From: Methanohalophilus halophilus
GTDB taxonomy: Archaea; Halobacteriota; Methanosarcinia; Methanosarcinales; Methanosarcinaceae
DNA length: 64,000 bases
Reading direction: 5' to 3'
Assembly (NCBI RefSeq): GCF_001889405.1
Contig: NZ_CP017921.1
Coordinates: 386,057 to 450,056 of the forward strand
The notes beneath the pieces are model-generated. The model was not told the DNA's origin. It worked only from the letters and a program-made list of their open reading frames with translations, and did no database searches. Each line of letters starts with the position of its first letter. Within the stretch, counting starts at the first letter, position 1. The position numbers and the translations under genes are program-made. This document shows positions 34,916-46,409 of the stretch, piece by piece.

Positions 34916-37206
<2,291 letters not shown>

Positions 37207-37207
37207 A

Positions 37208-38290
37208 ATGAAAACAATATGTCTGATTGGGGGCAAGCTACAGGGCTTCGAAGTGGCTTATCTTGCCAGGAAATCCGGGATACAGGTACATCTGATCGAC
37301 AGGAAAAACAAACCTCTGATACGTAATATGGCGGATGAGCATTTCTGCTTTGATATTACAGAAAGACCAGAAAGGCTCATAGAATTATCCTGCCACTCAG
37401 ATGCTATAATCCCGACAAATGAAAACCTTGATACCCTTCTCTTTTTGAAAAAAATAGAACCAGAACTACATTGCCCTCTTCTTTTCGATTTTACCGCCTA
37501 TCATACCAGCATGGACAAAAAGCGTTCAAGAAAATATTTCAAATCGAACGATATACCCATCCCTTCAGAAAAACCCCAATCTCCTCCTTATTTTGTGAAA
37601 CCCCCATGCATGAGCAGCAGTAAGGGGGCGCGCATAATTGACAACGAAAGTGAACTGGCAAACATTGATGAGTCGATGGTCATTGAAGAATATGTACCCG
37701 GACCAGTTGTTTCACTGGAAGTGGTGGGTGACGGGAACAATTTCATGATAGGCCAGCAGACACAGGTCCATATTGACCAGGAATATGATTGCCACAGGGT
37801 CACCCCAATGGAGACAGATGCAAATTTCAGGGAAATAGCACACCTGCTGGCCAGCAATCTGTGCCTTAAAGGAATCATGGATGTGGAGGCAATACTCTCC
37901 CCTGAAGGAATCCGGGTTATTGAGATTGATGCACGATTCCCCAGCCAGACACCTACCGTAGTATATCACAGTAGTGGTGTAAACCTGCTCGAATGGCTAA
38001 TGGGAAGTTTTGCAGGAAAAACAAGGGAAAACAAACCTCTTCCTGTTGGCAAACAATGTAACTATGAGCACCTGATGGCATCCGATGGAAAACTTATCCC
38101 TGTTGGAGAACATGTACTTTCAGGCGGTGATGACTACCGGCTATTCCATGAGTCAAACGGGTTGGAAATATTCAAATGCAGGTGTGAAAGGCCAACCTAT
38201 ACCCTTATATGCAGCGCCACGACCCGGCAAGAGATGTGTGGTAAAAGAAAAAAAGCAATTCAACTCATCAAATCCGATATGAAGCAATAA
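37208..38290 (+). CDS. pylC: Pyrrolysine biosynthesis ligase PylC
   Basis: 360 residues of the ATP-grasp superfamily. It starts MKTICLIGGKLQGFEVAYLA one base after the pylB stop, and the ATP-grasp core shows VIEEYVPGPVVSLEVVG and DVEAILSPEGIRVIEIDARFPSQTP. PylC joins methylornithine to the side-chain amine of lysine with ATP. An earlier in-frame start inside pylB is not plausible. Confidence 0.96.
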   Translation: MKTICLIGGKLQGFEVAYLARKSGIQVHLIDRKNKPLIRNMADEHFCFDITERPERLIELSCHSDAIIPTNENLDTLLFLKKIEPELHCPLLFDFTAYHTSMDKKRSRKYFKSNDIPIPSEKPQSPPYFVKPPCMSSSKGARIIDNESELANIDESMVIEEYVPGPVVSLEVVGDGNNFMIGQQTQVHIDQEYDCHRVTPMETDANFREIAHLLASNLCLKGIMDVEAILSPEGIRVIEIDARFPSQTPTVVYHSSGVNLLEWLMGSFAGKTRENKPLPVGKQCNYEHLMASDGKLIPVGEHVLSGGDDYRLFHESNGLEIFKCRCERPTYTLICSATTRQEMCGKRKKAIQLIKSDMKQ

Positions 38291-38303
38291 AAGGAGGATC
38301 AAT

Positions 38304-39083
38304 ATGGCACTACTTACACCACAAGATCTGGAAGGACTTACAAAGCAACTTGAGTGCAATAACAATACTATCAAAAAAGCAACCGGAATGGACATTGCTG
38401 ACATATGCAAACAAATATATGGCACCACTCTTGACGGAGAAAAGGTAGGTATTGTGCCTATAACTTCCGGTAACGGTATCATTACCAATTTTTCATCATC
38501 CCTGCTTACGATAACCGAATATTTCGGCCTTGATGGTGCTGTAACCGAGCATCCTGACGTTACCGGTTACTATGAAGCTGTTTCCAGTGATGCCGATATA
38601 ATACTGATGGCAGATGACCACATTTTTATTGCACATAATATGAGAAACGGCAAAATTGCAACCAATCATGTATGCACAGGCGTGGTTTACGCTGAAATCG
38701 CCTCCCGTTACAGATATGCCGACTCAAAAGATATACTTGTAATCGGCCTGGGAAGAGTGGGTTATGCCGGAGCACAACATCTTGTAAAAAGGGATTTCGA
38801 TGTGTATGCCTATGACCCCGACCGGGAAACTATGGAAAAAGCCCGCAAAGAACTGGGCATCATACCCTACGAACCCGAAGAAGAACACAAGTTCTCCATG
38901 GTCCTGGAGGCTACACCAAACCCCAATACGATCTCTGAAGGCATGGTGGCAGAAAGATGCCTCGTATCCACACCGGGAATCCCCTGTGGCTTACCTGAAG
39001 ACATTGGGGAAAGGAACGAAATCGATCTGGTAATGGAACCTCTGATGATCGGCGTGGCTTCAATGCTTTATGCTGTAATGTAA
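38304..39083 (+). CDS. pylD: Pyrrolysine biosynthesis dehydrogenase PylD
   Basis: 259 residues. An N-terminal helical domain and a Rossmann domain with VIGLGRVGYAGAQHLVK near residue 147. PylD oxidises the PylC product with NAD, and the ring then closes to pyrrolysine. An AAAGGAGG ribosome site stands before the ATG. It ends the pyl gene series. Confidence 0.96.
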   Translation: MALLTPQDLEGLTKQLECNNNTIKKATGMDIADICKQIYGTTLDGEKVGIVPITSGNGIITNFSSSLLTITEYFGLDGAVTEHPDVTGYYEAVSSDADIILMADDHIFIAHNMRNGKIATNHVCTGVVYAEIASRYRYADSKDILVIGLGRVGYAGAQHLVKRDFDVYAYDPDRETMEKARKELGIIPYEPEEEHKFSMVLEATPNPNTISEGMVAERCLVSTPGIPCGLPEDIGERNEIDLVMEPLMIGVASMLYAVM

Positions 39084-39154
39084 AGTAGAGAGCCCTCAAG
39101 ATCAAAACAAGTGTATTGATAGCGCTTTTTTCATGAAAAATTAGACATGAAAAG

Positions 39155-39164
39155 ATATATATAT
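39155..39164 (+). promoter_or_regulatory. TATA box for mtbA
   Basis: ATATATATAT at 39155-39164, about 64 bases before the mtbA ATG. The transcript should start near 39186 and carry a leader of about 38 bases with AAGGAG at 39210-39215. Confidence 0.55.
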
Positions 39165-39223
39165 GCTAAATGCGTAGCCAGATTACCTTTTAGAATAAAA
39201 ATAAGTTTTAAGGAGTAAAGGTT

Positions 39224-40252
39224 ATGGTTGAATATACACCCAAAGAGAGATTAGCACGCGTATTTGCAGGTGAAAAAGTAGACAGGATGCCTGCTATCTG
39301 TGCCACCCAGACAGGAACAGTAGAACAGATGGATGCAGTAGACGCTTACTGGCCAGAAGCTCACGAAGATCCTGTAAAAATGGCAGCATTGGCAGAAGCA
39401 GGGCACACAGTCGTAGGATTTGAAGCAGTGCGTGTTCCTTTCGACATCACAGCAGAAGCAGAATTTTTCGGATGCGGAATCAAGCCAAGTACCAAGGAAC
39501 AGCAGCCATCCGTAATCAGCCACGTTGTCAGCAAGATCGAAGACGTCGAGCAATTCGAAGGATATAACGTTGAAGATGGCAGGATCGGAAACGTATGTAA
39601 GGCAGTCAAGATCCTCTCAGACAAATACGGCGACGAACTTCCAATCATCGGCAGTATGATCGGACCATTCTCCCTCGCACAGCATCTTAACGGTGACTCC
39701 TGGTTCATGAACATCATGACAGATCAGGAATTTGGCCTCAAGCTCATGGAATTCACCACTGAATTCTGCACACAGTACGCCCTCAAGCAGGTCGAGAACG
39801 GTGCCGACACCTTTGCAATCATTGATCCAACAGCCAGCTACCAGCTTATTGGTGCTGACTTCTACAAGACTTTCGTAGTCCCATTCCACCAGAAGATTGT
39901 TGAAGCACTTCACGAGAAGGGAGTACCATCCATCCTCCACATCTGCGGAGACACAACAAACGGACTTGCGATCATGGAAACCTGCGGCGTAGACGCAATC
40001 AGTGTAGACCAGAATGTCGACCCTGCAGCAGCAGTTGAGAATGTGGACAAGGCCCTCATCTTAGGTAACCTCGACCCTGTAAGTGTCCTATGGAACCAGG
40101 GTGAAGACAATGTCGAAGGCGTAAAGGAAGAAGCCAAGAACGTCCTCGATGCAGGAGTACAGCTTCTCGCACCGGGTTGCGGTATTGTGAGCAAGACTCC
40201 TACCCAGAACCTTCAGGCAATGATCGAAGCAGCAAAGAACTGGACATACTAA
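39224..40252 (+). CDS. mtbA: Methylcobalamin:coenzyme M methyltransferase, methylamine-specific type
   Basis: 342 residues of the uroporphyrinogen decarboxylase-like methyltransferase family. The zinc ligands are His and Cys in LHICGD near residue 242 and Cys in APGCGI near 325. It moves the methyl group from the corrinoid protein to coenzyme M, the step before methane. MtaA (methanol) is a close paralogue; I choose MtbA because it adjoins the pyl genes, which serve methylamine methyltransferases. A strong ribosome site, its own TATA box and a terminator point to high expression as a single unit. Codon use is clearly biased (frequent ATC, AAC, TTC, GAC), as in highly expressed genes. Confidence 0.93.
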
Positions 40253-40276: not shown

Positions 40277-40410
40277 ATAAATTCTAAATTTGTTTGATTT
40301 TTACAAGCTTTAGATGCTTACTGCAGTATTTATATTTGCATTATCCTACTGGCATCATTAGCTTAATATATGCAGCATAAGAGATTTTCTATAATATCAT
40401 TTTGAGAAAG

Positions 40411-40419
40411 TTATATATA
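40411..40419 (+). promoter_or_regulatory. TATA box for the NifX/Fsr-like operon
   Basis: TTATATATA, about 49 bases before the first ATG (40464). The predicted transcript start near 40442 leaves a leader of about 22 bases containing AGAGGAAT. Confidence 0.6.
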
Positions 40420-40463
40420 CTTCCTCCTTTATGTGTCAAATATAGTACATTAGAGGAATAACA

Positions 40464-40856
40464 ATGAAAATCTGCATAACATCAAAAGGCAATGAACCTG
40501 ATTCAGATATTGAGCCCCGTTTTGGCAGAGCTCCTTATTTCATAATTGCCGACACCGAGAACGGAGAATTTGAAACAAAGGAGAACCCCGCAGTGAGTGC
40601 TACCGGTGGTGCCGGCATACAGGCTGCCCAAGAAGTCGCAAAAATGAAGGCAGATGTTTTGATCACCGGTAATGTGGGACCTAATGCCTACGAAGTCCTT
40701 TCCACAGCAGGGATAGAAGTCGTAACCACTTCCGGTGTATCAGTAAAAGAAGCAATTGAACAGTATAATAAAGGAACCCTGGAAAAAGTATCCGGTCCAA
40801 CTGCCAAAGCACATGCAGGCATGGGTCGCGGACAGGGCAGAGGAGGAAGAAAATGA
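40464..40856 (+). CDS. NifX/NafY-like (dinitrogenase cofactor domain) protein A
   Basis: 130 residues. The fold of the NifX/NifB-C-terminal family is shown by MKICITSKGNEPDSDIEPRFG, ITGNVGPNAYEVLSTAGIEV and the C-terminal EAIEQYNKGTL. The tail is glycine and arginine rich (GMGRGQGRGGRK). Members bind iron-molybdenum cofactor precursors or other metal clusters. No nitrogenase genes are here. The end overlaps the next gene by four bases (ATGA). Confidence 0.88.
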   Translation: MKICITSKGNEPDSDIEPRFGRAPYFIIADTENGEFETKENPAVSATGGAGIQAAQEVAKMKADVLITGNVGPNAYEVLSTAGIEVVTTSGVSVKEAIEQYNKGTLEKVSGPTAKAHAGMGRGQGRGGRK

Positions 40857-41218
40857 AAGTATGCATACCGGCAACCGAAAACAGTGGAATAGATTCACCC
40901 GTAGGGCAGCACTTTGGTAAAGTCCCTTATTACGCAATATACGACAGTGAGACCGGCAAGATAAATGTTCTGGAAAATACCAGTGAGCATATGGGCGGCG
41001 TCGGATTGCCCCCCGAATTACTTGCAAATGAAGGCGTTGAAACCATGCTCTGTGGAGGCCTGGGGTGGAAAGCTGTCCAGATGTTCGACCAGTTTGGCAT
41101 CAAAGTTTTCGTGGGAGCACAGGGAAAAGTTAGTGATGCCATAGAGGACTGGAAAAATGAAAGGCTCGAACAAGCTGGTGCAAACAACTCCTGCAGTGGA
41201 CATGATCACGAACACTGA
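40853..41218 (+). CDS. NifX/NafY-like protein B with histidine-rich tail
   Basis: 121 residues of the same family: MKVCIPATENSGIDSPVGQHFG, then CGGLGWKAVQMFDQFGIKVFVGA. The tail CSGHDHEH could bind a metal. It differs clearly from copy A, so the two probably form a pair with distinct roles. It overlaps the upstream gene and ends ten bases before the reductase. Confidence 0.88.
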   Translation: MKVCIPATENSGIDSPVGQHFGKVPYYAIYDSETGKINVLENTSEHMGGVGLPPELLANEGVETMLCGGLGWKAVQMFDQFGIKVFVGAQGKVSDAIEDWKNERLEQAGANNSCSGHDHEH

Positions 41219-41227
41219 TGTGATCGT

Positions 41228-43144
41228 ATGCTAGAAAAAAAATGGTTCCTGAAAGATGCTATTGTAGATACGGGCATGTGCACCCTTTGTGGTGCATGTG
41301 CTGCTGTTTGTCCTTATGATCTTATACGTTTTGATGAAAACGGACCATATCTTAAAGATGAATGCTACAGGAATGGAGAGGGAGCATGCAAAGATGTATG
41401 TCAGCGGGTAATGACCGATGCTTCCCGGATAGCGCTTAACACTTTCAATTTCAAGGCAAAGCCTCCAAGCTTGTTGGGACAATACGAAAAGATAGTGTCC
41501 GCAAGAGCAACAAATGAGACTCTTGCAGAGAAAGGACAGGATGGAGGAGCTGTCTCATCCCTTATTGCATACTGTATGAACAAGGGACTTATAGACGGTG
41601 CCATAACAACAGCTGGTTTTGCCAAACCTGCAGCAAACATAATTGGAAAAGGGGAAGATATAACAACATCTCAGGGAGCAAAATATTCAACCGTTCCATT
41701 ATTATCCACCCTCAGAAATGAAAAAGATAATTTCAACAAAGTAGCACTCGTAGGAACTCCATGTCAAACCTATGGTGTCCGTAGAATGCAATATTTCAAC
41801 GGCCTTAACGTGCACCCTGTAGAAATAGGAATGGATGGAGAATTTGCCAATAATCCTACTATTGAATACACGATTGGTCTCTTTTGCATGGAAAATTTCA
41901 ATTATCACAAGCTATCCGATTTCCTGGAAAATCAGGGAATCAAACTTAACGATATTAAAAAATATTCCATCCAACTTGATGAAATGATTATAACCACGGA
42001 TAATAAAAATATTGAGATCTCTCTGAAGGACCTTCAAGATTGTGTATGGGATGGCTGTAAGATATGCAGGGACGCAGTATCAAAGGTCGCTGATATTTCT
42101 GCAGGAAGTTCCGGGTCTTCAAAAGGGTGGACTACATTGATAGCCCGCAATGCCAAAGGATTGAAATTGCTTAATGATGCAAATGAAGCGGGCTATATTG
42201 AGATTTCAAATGAAGTAGATATTGAAATGACAAAAGAACTGGCAGAATTCAAAATGAGAAAGTTCCGTCATGAACTTGACAAACGTCTCAATTCAGAAAA
42301 AAAAGTCAGCTGCTACTGGGTTCGTGACTATCCGGGCGTAAGGCCTGAAGTAAATGGAACCAATTTTGTCAAAATAAAAACCGATTCAGGGATTACCACC
42401 CATGAATACCTGGGAAAAGTTGCCGAACTTGCCAAAAAATATGGTGACGGTACACTGGAAATGACCACAAGAAAAAGCATAGAAATACAGGGCGTGCCTG
42501 GAAGAAACATCGATGATCTTATGGCAGAGATCTATGACAAAGGGTTAAAAACAATTGGAATGGGGTATGCTACAGCATGCCCGGGAATGGATTATTGCCC
42601 CGAAGGCCTGGTAAGTACAAAAGAAATTGCCAACAAACTTACAATGCATTTTGCCCAGAAATTGACTCCACATAAAATGAAAGTAGGTGTCGCCGGTTGT
42701 CCAAATAGTTGTGTCCGCGTAAGAGACCATGACATAGGTATAATGGGCCAGCTCAGGCCTGTCATTGATGAAATAAAGTGCACAGGCTGTGGAAGATGTA
42801 CCGAACTATGCAAATTTAATGCCATATCAATAAAGGGAAGAAAAGCAGTTATAAACCGGGATCTTTGTGGAAATTGTGGATGGTGTGTCCGAGGATGCCC
42901 CCATGAAGCTGCTCTGGAAGATAAACGCGGTTACTCTTTATGGATAGGAGGTAATGGTGCACGCCGTCCTACAGAGGGAGTATTGATCAAATCATTCTGT
43001 GACGAGGAAGAAATCATAGAAACGATCAATGATATAGCTAGAGCATTCATAAAATATCGCACAAACCCCGGTAAAGAAAGGTTAGGCAATATTATGGACA
43101 AAATCGGCCAGGGAACTTTTATCAAAGAAATCCTGAAAAACTGA
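41228..43144 (+). CDS. F420-dependent sulfite-reductase-like fusion protein (Fsr family)
   Basis: 638 residues. Residues 1-60 hold a ferredoxin-type cluster (CTLCGACAAVC). Residues about 70-330 match the FrhB/FpoF F420-oxidising subunit (KGQDGGAVSSLIAYCMNKG, VGTPCQTYGVRRMQ). Residues about 340-620 are a siroheme sulfite/nitrite reductase half: CPGMDYC (Cx5C), CPNSC (Cx3C), followed by a two-cluster ferredoxin domain (CTGCGRCTELC, CGNCGWCVRGC). This is the layout of Fsr, which reduces sulfite with F420H2. Relatives in methylotrophic methanogens and ANME archaea belong to a separate group whose substrate is less certain (sulfite, nitrite or another). It is the third gene of the operon. Confidence 0.9.
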   Translation: MLEKKWFLKDAIVDTGMCTLCGACAAVCPYDLIRFDENGPYLKDECYRNGEGACKDVCQRVMTDASRIALNTFNFKAKPPSLLGQYEKIVSARATNETLAEKGQDGGAVSSLIAYCMNKGLIDGAITTAGFAKPAANIIGKGEDITTSQGAKYSTVPLLSTLRNEKDNFNKVALVGTPCQTYGVRRMQYFNGLNVHPVEIGMDGEFANNPTIEYTIGLFCMENFNYHKLSDFLENQGIKLNDIKKYSIQLDEMIITTDNKNIEISLKDLQDCVWDGCKICRDAVSKVADISAGSSGSSKGWTTLIARNAKGLKLLNDANEAGYIEISNEVDIEMTKELAEFKMRKFRHELDKRLNSEKKVSCYWVRDYPGVRPEVNGTNFVKIKTDSGITTHEYLGKVAELAKKYGDGTLEMTTRKSIEIQGVPGRNIDDLMAEIYDKGLKTIGMGYATACPGMDYCPEGLVSTKEIANKLTMHFAQKLTPHKMKVGVAGCPNSCVRVRDHDIGIMGQLRPVIDEIKCTGCGRCTELCKFNAISIKGRKAVINRDLCGNCGWCVRGCPHEAALEDKRGYSLWIGGNGARRPTEGVLIKSFCDEEEIIETINDIARAFIKYRTNPGKERLGNIMDKIGQGTFIKEILKN

Positions 43145-43155
43145 AGTGAATAACT

Positions 43156-43980
43156 ATGAAAATAACTGTGGCAAGCGGAAAGGGAGGAACCGGGAAAACA
43201 ACAGTTGCTGTAAATTTCTTCCTTTCCGTTCCAAAAATCAGCCTCCTTGACTGTGATGTGGAGGAGCCAAATTCCAATCTGTTTTTACACAATGACCTTG
43301 AAAAAGTAAAAGATGTTACGATACCAGTTCCTGTAATCGATGAGCAAAAATGCGAACATTGCGGCAAATGTGCTGATTTTTGTAATTACAATGCACTTGC
43401 AGCACTACCACAAAAGGTGATGGTCTTTTCCGATCTATGTCACGGTTGTGGAGGCTGTAGCCTCGTCTGTCCCAATGATGCTATCAGTGAAACAGGACGC
43501 AGCATAGGGGACATAGAGCGATCCTTTTCAGGAAAATTCCATACAGGACTCCTGAATATAGGAGAAGCAATGGCATCACCCCTGATAAAAGAACTCAAGA
43601 CCTATGCAGGCGAAAATACAGTAATAATGGACGCCCCCCCTGGTACCGCATGCCCGATGATCACAACAGTTGAAGATACTGACTATTGCATCCTTGTTAC
43701 CGAACCCACACCATTTGGACTCAATGACCTGAAACTAGCAGCGGAAGTTGTCCGGGAGATGAAAATTCCTGCGGGAGTGATAATCAACCGTGCAGGAGTA
43801 GGGGATGGAGGTGTTGAAGAATATTGCCATCAAACCGGTCTACCAATAATAATGGAAATTCCCTACGACCGCAGAATAGCTGTAGCTTATTCAGAAGGCA
43901 TACCTTTTGTTGAAACAATGCCGCAGTGGAAAGAAAAATTCCTGCAGATGTTTGAAACTATAAAGGAGGCAGTTAGATGA
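43156..43980 (+). CDS. MinD/Mrp-type ATPase with ferredoxin insert, copy 1
   Basis: 274 residues. The deviant Walker A is GKGGTGKTT near residue 9. An inserted two-cluster ferredoxin domain lies at about 60-110 (CEHCGKCADFC, CHGCGGCSLVC), then APPGTACP and the C-terminal P-loop partner VTEPTPFGLNDL. Such ATPases are related to iron-sulfur scaffold and CooC/NifH-like proteins. It ends with the ATGA overlap to copy 2. Confidence 0.92.
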   Translation: MKITVASGKGGTGKTTVAVNFFLSVPKISLLDCDVEEPNSNLFLHNDLEKVKDVTIPVPVIDEQKCEHCGKCADFCNYNALAALPQKVMVFSDLCHGCGGCSLVCPNDAISETGRSIGDIERSFSGKFHTGLLNIGEAMASPLIKELKTYAGENTVIMDAPPGTACPMITTVEDTDYCILVTEPTPFGLNDLKLAAEVVREMKIPAGVIINRAGVGDGGVEEYCHQTGLPIIMEIPYDRRIAVAYSEGIPFVETMPQWKEKFLQMFETIKEAVR

Positions 43981-44840
43981 GACAACTCACAGTAATCAGT
44001 GGCAAAGGTGGCACCGGCAAAACCACCCTCACTTCTTCCTTTGCAGCTCTTGCAGAAAATGCCACCATTGCAGACTGTGATGTCGATGCTGCAAACATGC
44101 ACCTGCTGTTGCAACCTGAAATAATAAAAACCTATGATTTTACCGCGTTACCTACAGCAGTCATACACCCTGAACAATGTACAGGATGCGGAATATGTGT
44201 TGACCATTGCAGATTCGGGGCAATAAAGGAAGGTTTCGAAATCGATCCCTATATATGTGAAGGTTGTGGAGTCTGCGAGTATGTCTGCCCTGTCGATGCA
44301 GTGACAATGGAATATAATAAATGCGGGGAAGCCTATGAATCAAAAACCCGGTTCGGACCGCTTGTCCATGCCAAACTCGGAATAGGGGAAGAAGCTGGAG
44401 GAAAACTTGTCACACTCGTTCGGGAAATTGCAGAAGAGGTAGCCCAAAAAAATAATTGTGACACAATAATCATAGATGGACCACCGGGCACCGGTTGTTC
44501 GGTAATTGCAGCCCTTACTGGTGTGGACATTGCCCTTGTAGTCACCGAACCCACCGTAGCCGGAATACATGATCTGAAAAGAGTGATAGAAGTAGCAGAA
44601 CATTTCGATATACCATCTCTTGTTTGCATAAACAAATCCGATATAAACGACAGCAAAAGAAGAGAAATAGAAACTTTCTGCACTCAGAAGGGCATTAGAA
44701 TTGCAGGCGAAATCCCCTATGATACAACACCCACCGAGGCAATGGTGAAGGGAAAAACAATTGTGGAATATACCGACAATTCTTTTGCAAAATGTGTCAT
44801 AGAAGTATGGGAAAAAGTAAAAGAAGAGATGGGATCATGA
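43977..44840 (+). CDS. MinD/Mrp-type ATPase with ferredoxin insert, copy 2
   Basis: 287 residues. SGKGGTGKTTLTSSFAALAE, insert CTGCGICVDHC and CEGCGVCEYVC (about 65-105), DGPPGTGCSVI, and VTEPTVAGIHDL. It shares the layout of copy 1 but has an insertion after the ferredoxin domain. The paired copies with four-base overlap suggest a heterodimer. It overlaps the DUF1847 gene start. Confidence 0.92.
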   Translation: MRQLTVISGKGGTGKTTLTSSFAALAENATIADCDVDAANMHLLLQPEIIKTYDFTALPTAVIHPEQCTGCGICVDHCRFGAIKEGFEIDPYICEGCGVCEYVCPVDAVTMEYNKCGEAYESKTRFGPLVHAKLGIGEEAGGKLVTLVREIAEEVAQKNNCDTIIIDGPPGTGCSVIAALTGVDIALVVTEPTVAGIHDLKRVIEVAEHFDIPSLVCINKSDINDSKRREIETFCTQKGIRIAGEIPYDTTPTEAMVKGKTIVEYTDNSFAKCVIEVWEKVKEEMGS

Positions 44841-45409
44841 GATGTGCAGCCTGTCAGGAGAAGGAATGTCGCAACGGGAAAGATTGCAGCGGTGTTGCAG
44901 AAGATATCGAATATAGCGGTGAAGACCTTGATTGTATGCAGGTTGCAGCTGCTATCGAAGGGCAACATTATATGCAAAAAACCCGGCTGGAAGAGCTTAT
45001 CCTGTTTGCCAAACAAATGGGTTACCAGAAACTGGGAATTGCTTTTTGTATCGGGCTGGCAAATGAAGCCGCAACTATCACCCGGATACTGAAAAAGGAT
45101 TTCGAGGTTTATTCTGTCTGCTGCAAAGTATGTGGAATCCCCAAGGAAAAATATTCCCTTGAAAAGATACAGCCCGAAAAATTAGAGGTTACATGTAACC
45201 CCAAGGGACAGGCCTTCTTACTTGCCAAAAAACAAACCGAGCTTAATATCATCGTTGGTCTCTGCATGGGTCATGACATTATATTTACCCGCAACAGTGA
45301 AGCCCCGGTAACCACCCTGATTGTCAAGGACAGGGTGCTTGCACATAATCCTGCAGGTGCAATCTATTCCGGCTATTACCTGCGTAAGAAATTCAATATG
45401 GAAGATTGA
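44837..45409 (+). CDS. DUF1847 cysteine-rich protein
   Basis: 190 residues from ATG 44837 (MRCAACQEKECRNGKDCSG). There are several Cys positions: the N-terminal cluster, IAFCIGLANEA, VCCKVCGIPKEKY, VTCNPKGQAF and GLCMGHD. They probably bind a metal or cluster. The DUF1847 family has no known role. The start overlaps the stop of the second ATPase, which rules out the earlier in-frame ATG. Confidence 0.85.
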   Translation: MRCAACQEKECRNGKDCSGVAEDIEYSGEDLDCMQVAAAIEGQHYMQKTRLEELILFAKQMGYQKLGIAFCIGLANEAATITRILKKDFEVYSVCCKVCGIPKEKYSLEKIQPEKLEVTCNPKGQAFLLAKKQTELNIIVGLCMGHDIIFTRNSEAPVTTLIVKDRVLAHNPAGAIYSGYYLRKKFNMED

Positions 45410-45411
45410 AT

Positions 45412-46068
45412 ATGCAACTTACCGTTGTTTATGATAATAATGCAGCCGAAGGTTTTCATGCAGGATGGGGTTTTGCCTGCCTGATTCGACATGGAGACAC
45501 CACGCTTCTTTTTGATACAGGTTGGAACGGACCCGCCCTGCTGGAAAACCTTCAAAATGTGGGAGTGAGACCCTCAGAAATAGACATACTTATCCTATCC
45601 CACCAGCACTGGGATCATATAGGAGGGCTGTCTGCAATATTACATAATTCAGATACCCTGGAAGTGTATGTACCCCGGGAATTCTCCCCGAATCTAAAAA
45701 AAGAAATAGCCAGACATTCCCATCTTATAGAAGTCACAAAATCCAGGCAGGTCTGCAAAGGAGTTTTTAGCACCGGTCAACTGGGAAAAAGCATAAAAGA
45801 ACAATCCCTTATCCTGCAATCTGAAGATGAATTGTATGTTATAACCGGATGTGCCCACCCGGGATTGGGGGAAATAATTGACAACGCTGCAAAAAGGGGC
45901 CATGTCACAGGTGTACTCGGAGGACTGCATGATTTCAATGACATGGATATATTGGGCCGACTTTCATACATCGCAGCCGGACACTGCACATCTCACCATG
46001 ATGAAATTAGAAGAAAATTTCCGGATAAATTTGCATACATTTATGCAGGATACTCCGTAGACATATGA
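45412..46068 (+). CDS. Metallo-beta-lactamase-fold protein
   Basis: 218 residues. FACLIRHGDTTLLFDTGW, then the metal motif LSHQHWDHIGGL (HxHxDH), VITGCAHPG and YIAAGHCTSHHDE supply the remaining ligands. It resembles the archaeal group named after the dihydropterin/RFA-P synthase-related hydrolases, whose real substrates are mostly untested. It is the last gene of the compact operon, two bases after DUF1847. I use ATG 45412 rather than TTG 45406. Confidence 0.88.
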   Translation: MQLTVVYDNNAAEGFHAGWGFACLIRHGDTTLLFDTGWNGPALLENLQNVGVRPSEIDILILSHQHWDHIGGLSAILHNSDTLEVYVPREFSPNLKKEIARHSHLIEVTKSRQVCKGVFSTGQLGKSIKEQSLILQSEDELYVITGCAHPGLGEIIDNAAKRGHVTGVLGGLHDFNDMDILGRLSYIAAGHCTSHHDEIRRKFPDKFAYIYAGYSVDI

Positions 46069-46124
46069 CAATATAGCAAGAACTATATTCTAAGATTTCT
46101 ATAATGTTTGATAGGAGGATACGT

Positions 46125-46409
46125 ATGTTATCAAAGATACCAATTGACCTTGATGCTGTAGAGGATGAGAACATAGACAAGGAAATCTTAAGGGCTGGCA
46201 TTATAGCCGAACTTGATGCTATAAACCTCTATGAACAGATGGCCGAACTATCTTCCAGCGAGGAGATCCGTGCAGTGCTGCTTGACATTGCAAAGGAAGA
46301 AAAGACCCACGTGGGAGAATTCCAGACCATGCTGCTTGAATACGATGATGAACAGGCAGATGAACTGGAAGCAGGCAGAAAAGAAGTTGAAGAAGAAGTC
46401 CTTAAATAA
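46125..46409 (+). CDS. Short ferritin-like di-iron protein
   Basis: 94 residues. Two helices carry the di-iron ligands: EILRAGIIAELDAINLYEQM and EEIRAVLLDIAKEEKTHVGEF (ExxH-type). One half of a four-helix bundle is encoded, so it should dimerise, as in encapsulated ferritin-like proteins. No encapsulin shell gene is nearby. An AGGAGGA ribosome site precedes ATG 46125. It may store or handle iron for the neighbouring cluster. Confidence 0.85.
   Translation: MLSKIPIDLDAVEDENIDKEILRAGIIAELDAINLYEQMAELSSSEEIRAVLLDIAKEEKTHVGEFQTMLLEYDDEQADELEAGRKEVEEEVLK

Follow-up and report, generated by a model that had tools for sequence, protein, structure and literature searches.

The gene at positions 41228 to 43144 (+ strand) of the window (the whole 64,000-nucleotide stretch of Methanohalophilus halophilus DNA analyzed here, from a genome of one 2.02-Mb contig) was confirmed by sequence comparison as a predicted group II Fsr, a member of an already published family. 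In this salt-loving methanogen, the F420-using enzyme probably reduces nitrite, which is toxic, to ammonia. Its gene is optional, being inserted in an operon of NifX- and MinD-type genes that close relatives have without it. Two things that have been treated as one in the literature can now be separated, as group II Fsr falls into two subclades with different neighborhoods. The sole assayed group II enzyme appears to belong to the other subclade, and the nitrite reductase label for the culturable methylotrophic methanogens is one by analogy.

The open reading frame is intact (ATG to TGA, 638 amino acids, exact bounds). Pfam, phmmer, tree, alignment, and AlphaFold/Foldseek results agreed on a group II Fsr-type F420H2:oxyanion reductase, with the activity predicted, and confirmed the makeup suggested by the sequence, an FrhB-type F420H2 oxidase fused to a siroheme sulfite/nitrite reductase with a two-cluster ferredoxin insert, as defines the Fsr family. 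An N-terminal ferredoxin (about residues 1 to 70; Pfam Fer4; C18/21/24/28 and C46/54/58) is followed by the oxidase part (about 80 to 356; FrhB_FdhB_N and FrhB_FdhB_C, E 2e-43) and the siroheme reductase part (about 360 to 638; NIR_SIR_ferr and NIR_SIR, E 2e-27), within which lies the Fer4 dicluster insert (about 511 to 561; C518/521/524/528 and C547/550/553/557). The siroheme-[4Fe-4S] motif CX5CXnCX3C characteristic of the family (C451-x5-C457 and C491-x3-C495) was invariant among the compared sequences. The first-pass annotation had proposed such an Fsr-like fusion with Cx5C and Cx3C motifs and a two-cluster ferredoxin, and the Pfam, phmmer, and Foldseek results and the cysteine positions bear it out. 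Full-length phmmer matches were to Fsr proteins of known structure, namely 9tn7 (E 2e-132; Methanocaldococcus infernus Fsr, PMC13381448), 7np8, and 7npa. Likewise, 7npa and 7np8 were the best Foldseek matches (E about 1e-59) of the AlphaFold model (pLDDT 81.5, pTM 0.72), with a model-to-structure fit (TM about 0.7, rmsd 7 Å) in which the arrangement of the domains relative to each other is unreliable. Judged by these comparisons, the likeness to Fsr is far beyond chance. Among fsr carriers, the nearest named relative was Methanohalophilus profundi (Fsr 95% identical), and the Methanohalophilus mahii homologue is already present in published alignments.

Fsr-family matches were detected in 48 of the 186 genomes of the order. 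The tree was built from 64 non-identical Fsr-family sequences, drawn from whole genomes of the order and from named contigs, together with MjFsr from a PDB search. Group II (51 rows) formed a single clade (SH-aLRT 100) apart from group I (14 rows), and the window protein was placed in this Methanosarcinales/ANME clade rather than in the group I clade, which holds the sulfite-induced enzymes. The phylogeny that the first-pass annotation had asked for thus upholds its assignment to the group of methylotrophs and ANME. Within group II, the window protein belonged to a subclade of 31 rows (support 100) that also held further Methanohalophilus, Methanococcoides, and Methanolobus sequences, the group II copy of genome G103, ANME-3-type and ANME-2a rows, and two records labeled Methanofastidiosia. 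The ANME side comprised ANME-2c, the second ANME-2a copy, and GoM-Arc1 and relatives (15 plus 2 rows), and three Methanothrix rows also fell in group II. An AU test rejected the Methanohalophilus sequences and the ANME side alone as one clade (p 0.0025). Contigs named Ca. Methanogasteraceae, an ANME-2 family that we take to be the ANME-2c family, grouped on the ANME side. The tree covers ANME-2c by genome sequences other than the assayed FNiR (MH823235), whose ANME-side position, deduced from those genomes, would place it in a different subclade from the window protein. The window protein was 57 to 58% identical to Fsr of the ANME-2c type. At 18 positions the ANME side and the window's subclade each have their own fixed residue, among them a Gln on the ANME side versus K416, beside the active-site residue R415.

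Several placements within group II deserve mention in their own right. Group II Fsr (62 to 64% identical) was encoded on two Methanofastidiosia-labeled contigs (L101, 868 to 2883; L120, 7526 to 9436). These fall outside the Halobacteriota, the range of group II Fsr in the literature, and their label may reflect MAG mislabeling or contamination. Loci L120 and L102 had carAB-like genes just 3' of fsr on the opposite strand. Methanothrix/Methanosaeta contigs (L103, L104, and L121) carried a group II Fsr (58%) on a branch of its own, and in the ANME-2a genomes G008 (L100/L113) and G009 (L061/L080), both group II subclades were represented by one fsr each.

Residues were mapped on MjFsr numbering in the 51 aligned group II sequences, with residue roles taken from PMC10229431. 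At the sulfite site, Arg355 of group I was replaced by Lys in 51/51 sequences (Lys382 in the window protein) and Arg423 was lost within a 4-residue deletion in all 51, including the window protein, which therefore has the group II and not the group I site. Arg388, Lys460, Lys462, and the siroheme-cluster cysteines were invariant in group II. The other Fe-S cysteine ligands were also kept, with an Arg at one cysteine position in 1 of the 51 sequences, as was the equivalent of Glu180 (E199 in the window protein), which ligates a cluster in MtFsr (PMC10229431). As the cluster ligands are conserved, the group I electron path appears to be intact in group II. The published idea that FsrII is without one N-terminal cluster for want of ligands found no support in ligand conservation, as all seven N-terminal cysteines and the Glu180 equivalent are invariant; the published iron counts are a separate matter. 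The substrate cannot be read from these residues alone, because the authors of the ANME-2c study concluded that the altered oxyanion site did not itself explain the lost sulfite reduction (PMC9295563).

F420H2-dependent reduction of nitrite and hydroxylamine is nevertheless the favored function of the window protein and is probably correct, because the ANME-2c enzyme, the one group II Fsr that has been assayed, reduces nitrite (Km 5 μM) and hydroxylamine (Km 11 μM) with F420H2 and does not reduce sulfite with this donor (PMC9295563). Donor and acceptors would both carry over from a homologue about 57 to 58% identical. The substrate uncertainty expressed in the first-pass annotation is genuine, as a search of the literature turned up no enzyme of the window's 31-row subclade whose activity had been assayed. 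Nitrite is also reduced by group I Fsr (PMC13381448, PMC10202398). By analogy with the characterized enzymes, F420H2 from methyl-group oxidation would reduce the FAD of the FrhB-type half by hydride transfer. Electrons would pass from the oxidase cluster through the two N-terminal clusters and then the inserted ferredoxin's two clusters, presumably on the other chain of the dimer, the arrangement of MtFsr, to the siroheme-[4Fe-4S] center, where nitrite and hydroxylamine would most likely be converted to ammonium. Removal of nitrite could shield methyl-coenzyme M reductase from nitrite traces. A literature search combining Methanohalophilus and nitrite returned nothing specific, and no nitrate reductase or nitrite transport gene was found beside fsr in the window, which counts against nitrite reduction, as do the 18 fixed differences from the ANME side. 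In its favor, the SirC-type siroheme synthase domain (PF13241, NAD_binding_7) gave a strong match in 8/8 genomes of the genus. Hybrid-cluster-type proteins (PF03063) and other siroheme reductases (PF01077) were also present in all eight, and no co-loss of fsr with nitrosative-stress or siroheme genes was seen among them.

The main rival explanation is that enzymes of the window's subclade are sulfite reductases after all and drive the reduction of sulfite to sulfide with F420H2, for detoxification or sulfur supply. The scaffold and full set of cluster ligands shared with group I Fsr, the retention of both active-site lysines and Arg388, and the ability of the ANME-2c enzyme to reduce sulfite when methyl viologen is the donor, and only then (PMC9295563), would all be consistent with this. 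However, Arg355 and Arg423 are altered in every group II member, the window protein lies outside the sulfite-induced clade, and the ANME-2c enzyme reduced no sulfite with F420H2. Furthermore, sulfite is a growth inhibitor of Methanococcoides burtonii despite the alSir and group II Fsr of this species (PMC6286981), and Methanococcoides Fsr falls within the window's 31-row subclade. Sulfite reduction by the window protein is therefore unlikely, and sulfite detoxification is disfavored. A role other than plain sulfite detoxification had been suggested previously from the operon position. The altered sulfite-site residues and the nitrite activity of the ANME-2c enzyme (PMC9295563) speak for such a role, but the operon-based argument is weak, as four of the eight genus genomes have all the other genes of the operon and no fsr.

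The location of fsr inside an operon, as first annotated, is clear from the gene spacing. NifX1 (40464 to 40856, 130 amino acids; Nitro_FeMo-Co, the dinitrogenase FeMo-cofactor domain, PF02579, E 1e-24), NifX2 (40853 to 41218, 121 amino acids; PF02579, E 1e-20), fsr, MinDa (43156 to 43980), MinDb (43977 to 44840), a DUF1847 gene (44837 to 45409; PF08901, E 5e-52), and a metallo-beta-lactamase (MBL)-fold gene (45406 to 46068; PF00753), the last of the tightly overlapping genes, all lie on the + strand with gaps of -4, +9, +11, -4, -4, and -4 bp. MinDa is a P-loop ATPase of the MinD/Mrp type into which two 4Fe-4S motifs are inserted, an Orp3/Orp4-like architecture (Pfam ParA/CbiA/Fer4), and MinDb is a second MinD/Mrp-type ferredoxin ATPase (Pfam). 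The DUF1847 product is 190 amino acids long from the ATG at 44837; the start at 44792 in the ORF list is probably too early, as homologues are about 190 amino acids long. Upstream alignment points to a TATA-like element at 40404 to 40426 (+; GAGAAAGTTATATATACTTCCTC) as the probable promoter core of the operon. Six members of the genus share it, fsr carriers and others alike, and it is weakest in G107. As the gap before fsr is only 9 bp, there is little space for a separate fsr promoter, and the operon, including fsr, is presumably cotranscribed. Directly 5' of the operon, pylSBCD and then mtbA (34931 to 40252) form an arrangement that most of the genus has, whether or not fsr is present; at locus L038 (10164 to 15836, genome G108), mtbA and NifX1 are about 5 kb apart with other genes between them, and the promoter core is retained. 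Positions 46104 to 46409 encode a small ferritin-like protein that matches the encapsulin-cargo EncB family below the cutoff.

A 2012 survey reported that the surroundings of fsr are not conserved (PMC3448663). Contrary to that survey, with present genomes they are conserved within the window's subclade. A NifX-type gene was located within 6 kb of fsr at 25 of its 31 loci (24 by automatic ORF calling and L038, where both NifX genes were recovered by tblastn), compared with 1/33 other Fsr-family loci (a CDF-NifX fusion) and 0/21 control loci, mostly FpoF-type (Fisher's test on the 24 automatic calls, p 2.5e-10, relatedness ignored). Five changes are needed on the tree to explain the linkage state, and six members of the subclade are without the linkage. 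NifX1 adjoins fsr in sister genera too, and the order differs among lineages: NifX-NifX-fsr-MinD-MinD in Methanohalophilus, NifX-(NifX)-fsr-CDF/NifX fusion-MinD in Methanococcoides and ANME-3, and NifX-DUF5320-fsr-MBL-radical SAM-MinD in ANME-2a. The fusion gene directly 3' of fsr in Methanococcoides and ANME-3 (L042, 6586 to 7818, - strand) encodes a cation-efflux (CDF) transporter with a C-terminal Nitro_FeMo-Co (NifX-type) domain. On the ANME side, a divergent Lrp/AsnC-type regulator lies beside fsr at 15/17 loci, with no MinD nearby; this gene (L066, 2662 to 3168, and 14 other loci) may encode a regulator of the FNiR that has been assayed. A literature search combining sulfite reductase with the Nitro_FeMo-Co name returned nothing specific.

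The operon is maintained without fsr, as four of the eight genus genomes keep it intact in the absence of the gene: NifX2 adjoins MinDa on one contig, with the rest of the operon and the neighbors in place. Two of these genomes share 91.7 to 95.3% nucleotide identity with fsr carriers over the neighboring genes, and a neighbor-gene tree of six close species, bearing on gain versus loss of fsr within the genus, was star-like. MinDa occurs in 107/186 genomes of the order, most of which have no fsr. Conversely, two Methanococcoides genomes keep NifX1-fsr-CDF and have their MinDa match elsewhere. The linkage of fsr to NifX/MinD genes is thus a real, lineage-specific association that is not obligatory in either direction, and fsr would be an optional, presumably cotranscribed passenger of an Orp/NifX-MinD type metal-cluster operon. 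As the operon persists without fsr and fsr of the ANME-2c side occurs without these neighbors, context cannot name the substrate.

These observations bear on the proposal that Fsr functions within the NifX/MinD module, supplying sulfide or electrons for the building or repair of metal-sulfur clusters or acting on a bound metal or oxyanion intermediate. The enrichment of NifX near fsr in the window's subclade, the persistence of the association through changes in gene order, and the cation-efflux/NifX fusion as the next gene in Methanococcoides and ANME-3 argue for it. However, it is rather improbable given the fsr-less operons of the genus, the mostly fsr-less distribution of MinDa, the displaced MinD of the two Methanococcoides genomes, and the six unlinked members. 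A related and more doubtful idea is that the methanogen/ANME-3/ANME-2a subclade was recruited by the module to reduce a module-related substrate, either a metal-bound oxyanion or sulfite, with the resulting sulfide used in cluster building. Such a function would be distinct from both sulfite detoxification and the nitrite reduction of ANME-2c. That the NifX/MinD genes are dedicated maturation factors of the siroheme-[4Fe-4S] enzyme, as the operon position and the transfer of Fe-S clusters to ORP proteins by MrpORP in Desulfovibrio (PMC6345978) might suggest, is very improbable and as an obligatory role largely refuted, since the operon is intact without fsr, fsr occurs without an adjoining operon, and ANME-2c FsrII acquired siroheme when made in M. 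acetivorans (PMC9295563), though many Methanosarcinaceae carry MinDa.

Nitrite and hydroxylamine reduction thus remains the preferred reading. The split into two subclades with distinct neighborhoods and the clean presence or absence of fsr inside one operon appear to be unreported among the papers searched, and closely related Methanohalophilus, some having and some lacking fsr within an otherwise near-identical operon, constitute a natural experiment in cultivable organisms.

Among known systems, the operon resembles the ORP (orange protein) complex of Desulfovibrio (Orp3/Orp4/Orp8; PMC6345978), in that Pfam identified Nitro_FeMo-Co proteins and two MinD-like ATPases with 4Fe-4S ferredoxin inserts, a likeness by parts and description and not by Orp sequences. 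Further hallmarks of the ORP type are biochemical, a Mo-Cu sulfide cluster and complex formation. The complex as described includes no Fsr, and the window adds DUF1847 and MBL-fold genes. Group I Fsr (MjFsr 7np8, MtFsr 7npa, and MiFsr 9tn7; PMC10229431, PMC13381448) shares with the window protein the domain order, the Fe-S ligands, the Glu180 equivalent, Arg388, Lys460, and Lys462, but differs in overall sequence (about 35% identity), in Lys382 for Arg355, in the deletion that removes Arg423, and in its separate clade. Closest is the group II Fsr/FNiR of ANME-2c (PMC9295563; Yu et al., PMC6286981), with which the window protein has in common the fusion, the changes at the Arg355/Arg423 sites, the cluster ligands, and the group II clade. 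The two differ in identity (57 to 58%), in subclade (AU p 0.0025), and in setting, with an Lrp/AsnC-type regulator beside fsr on the ANME side and a NifX/MinD operon in the window.
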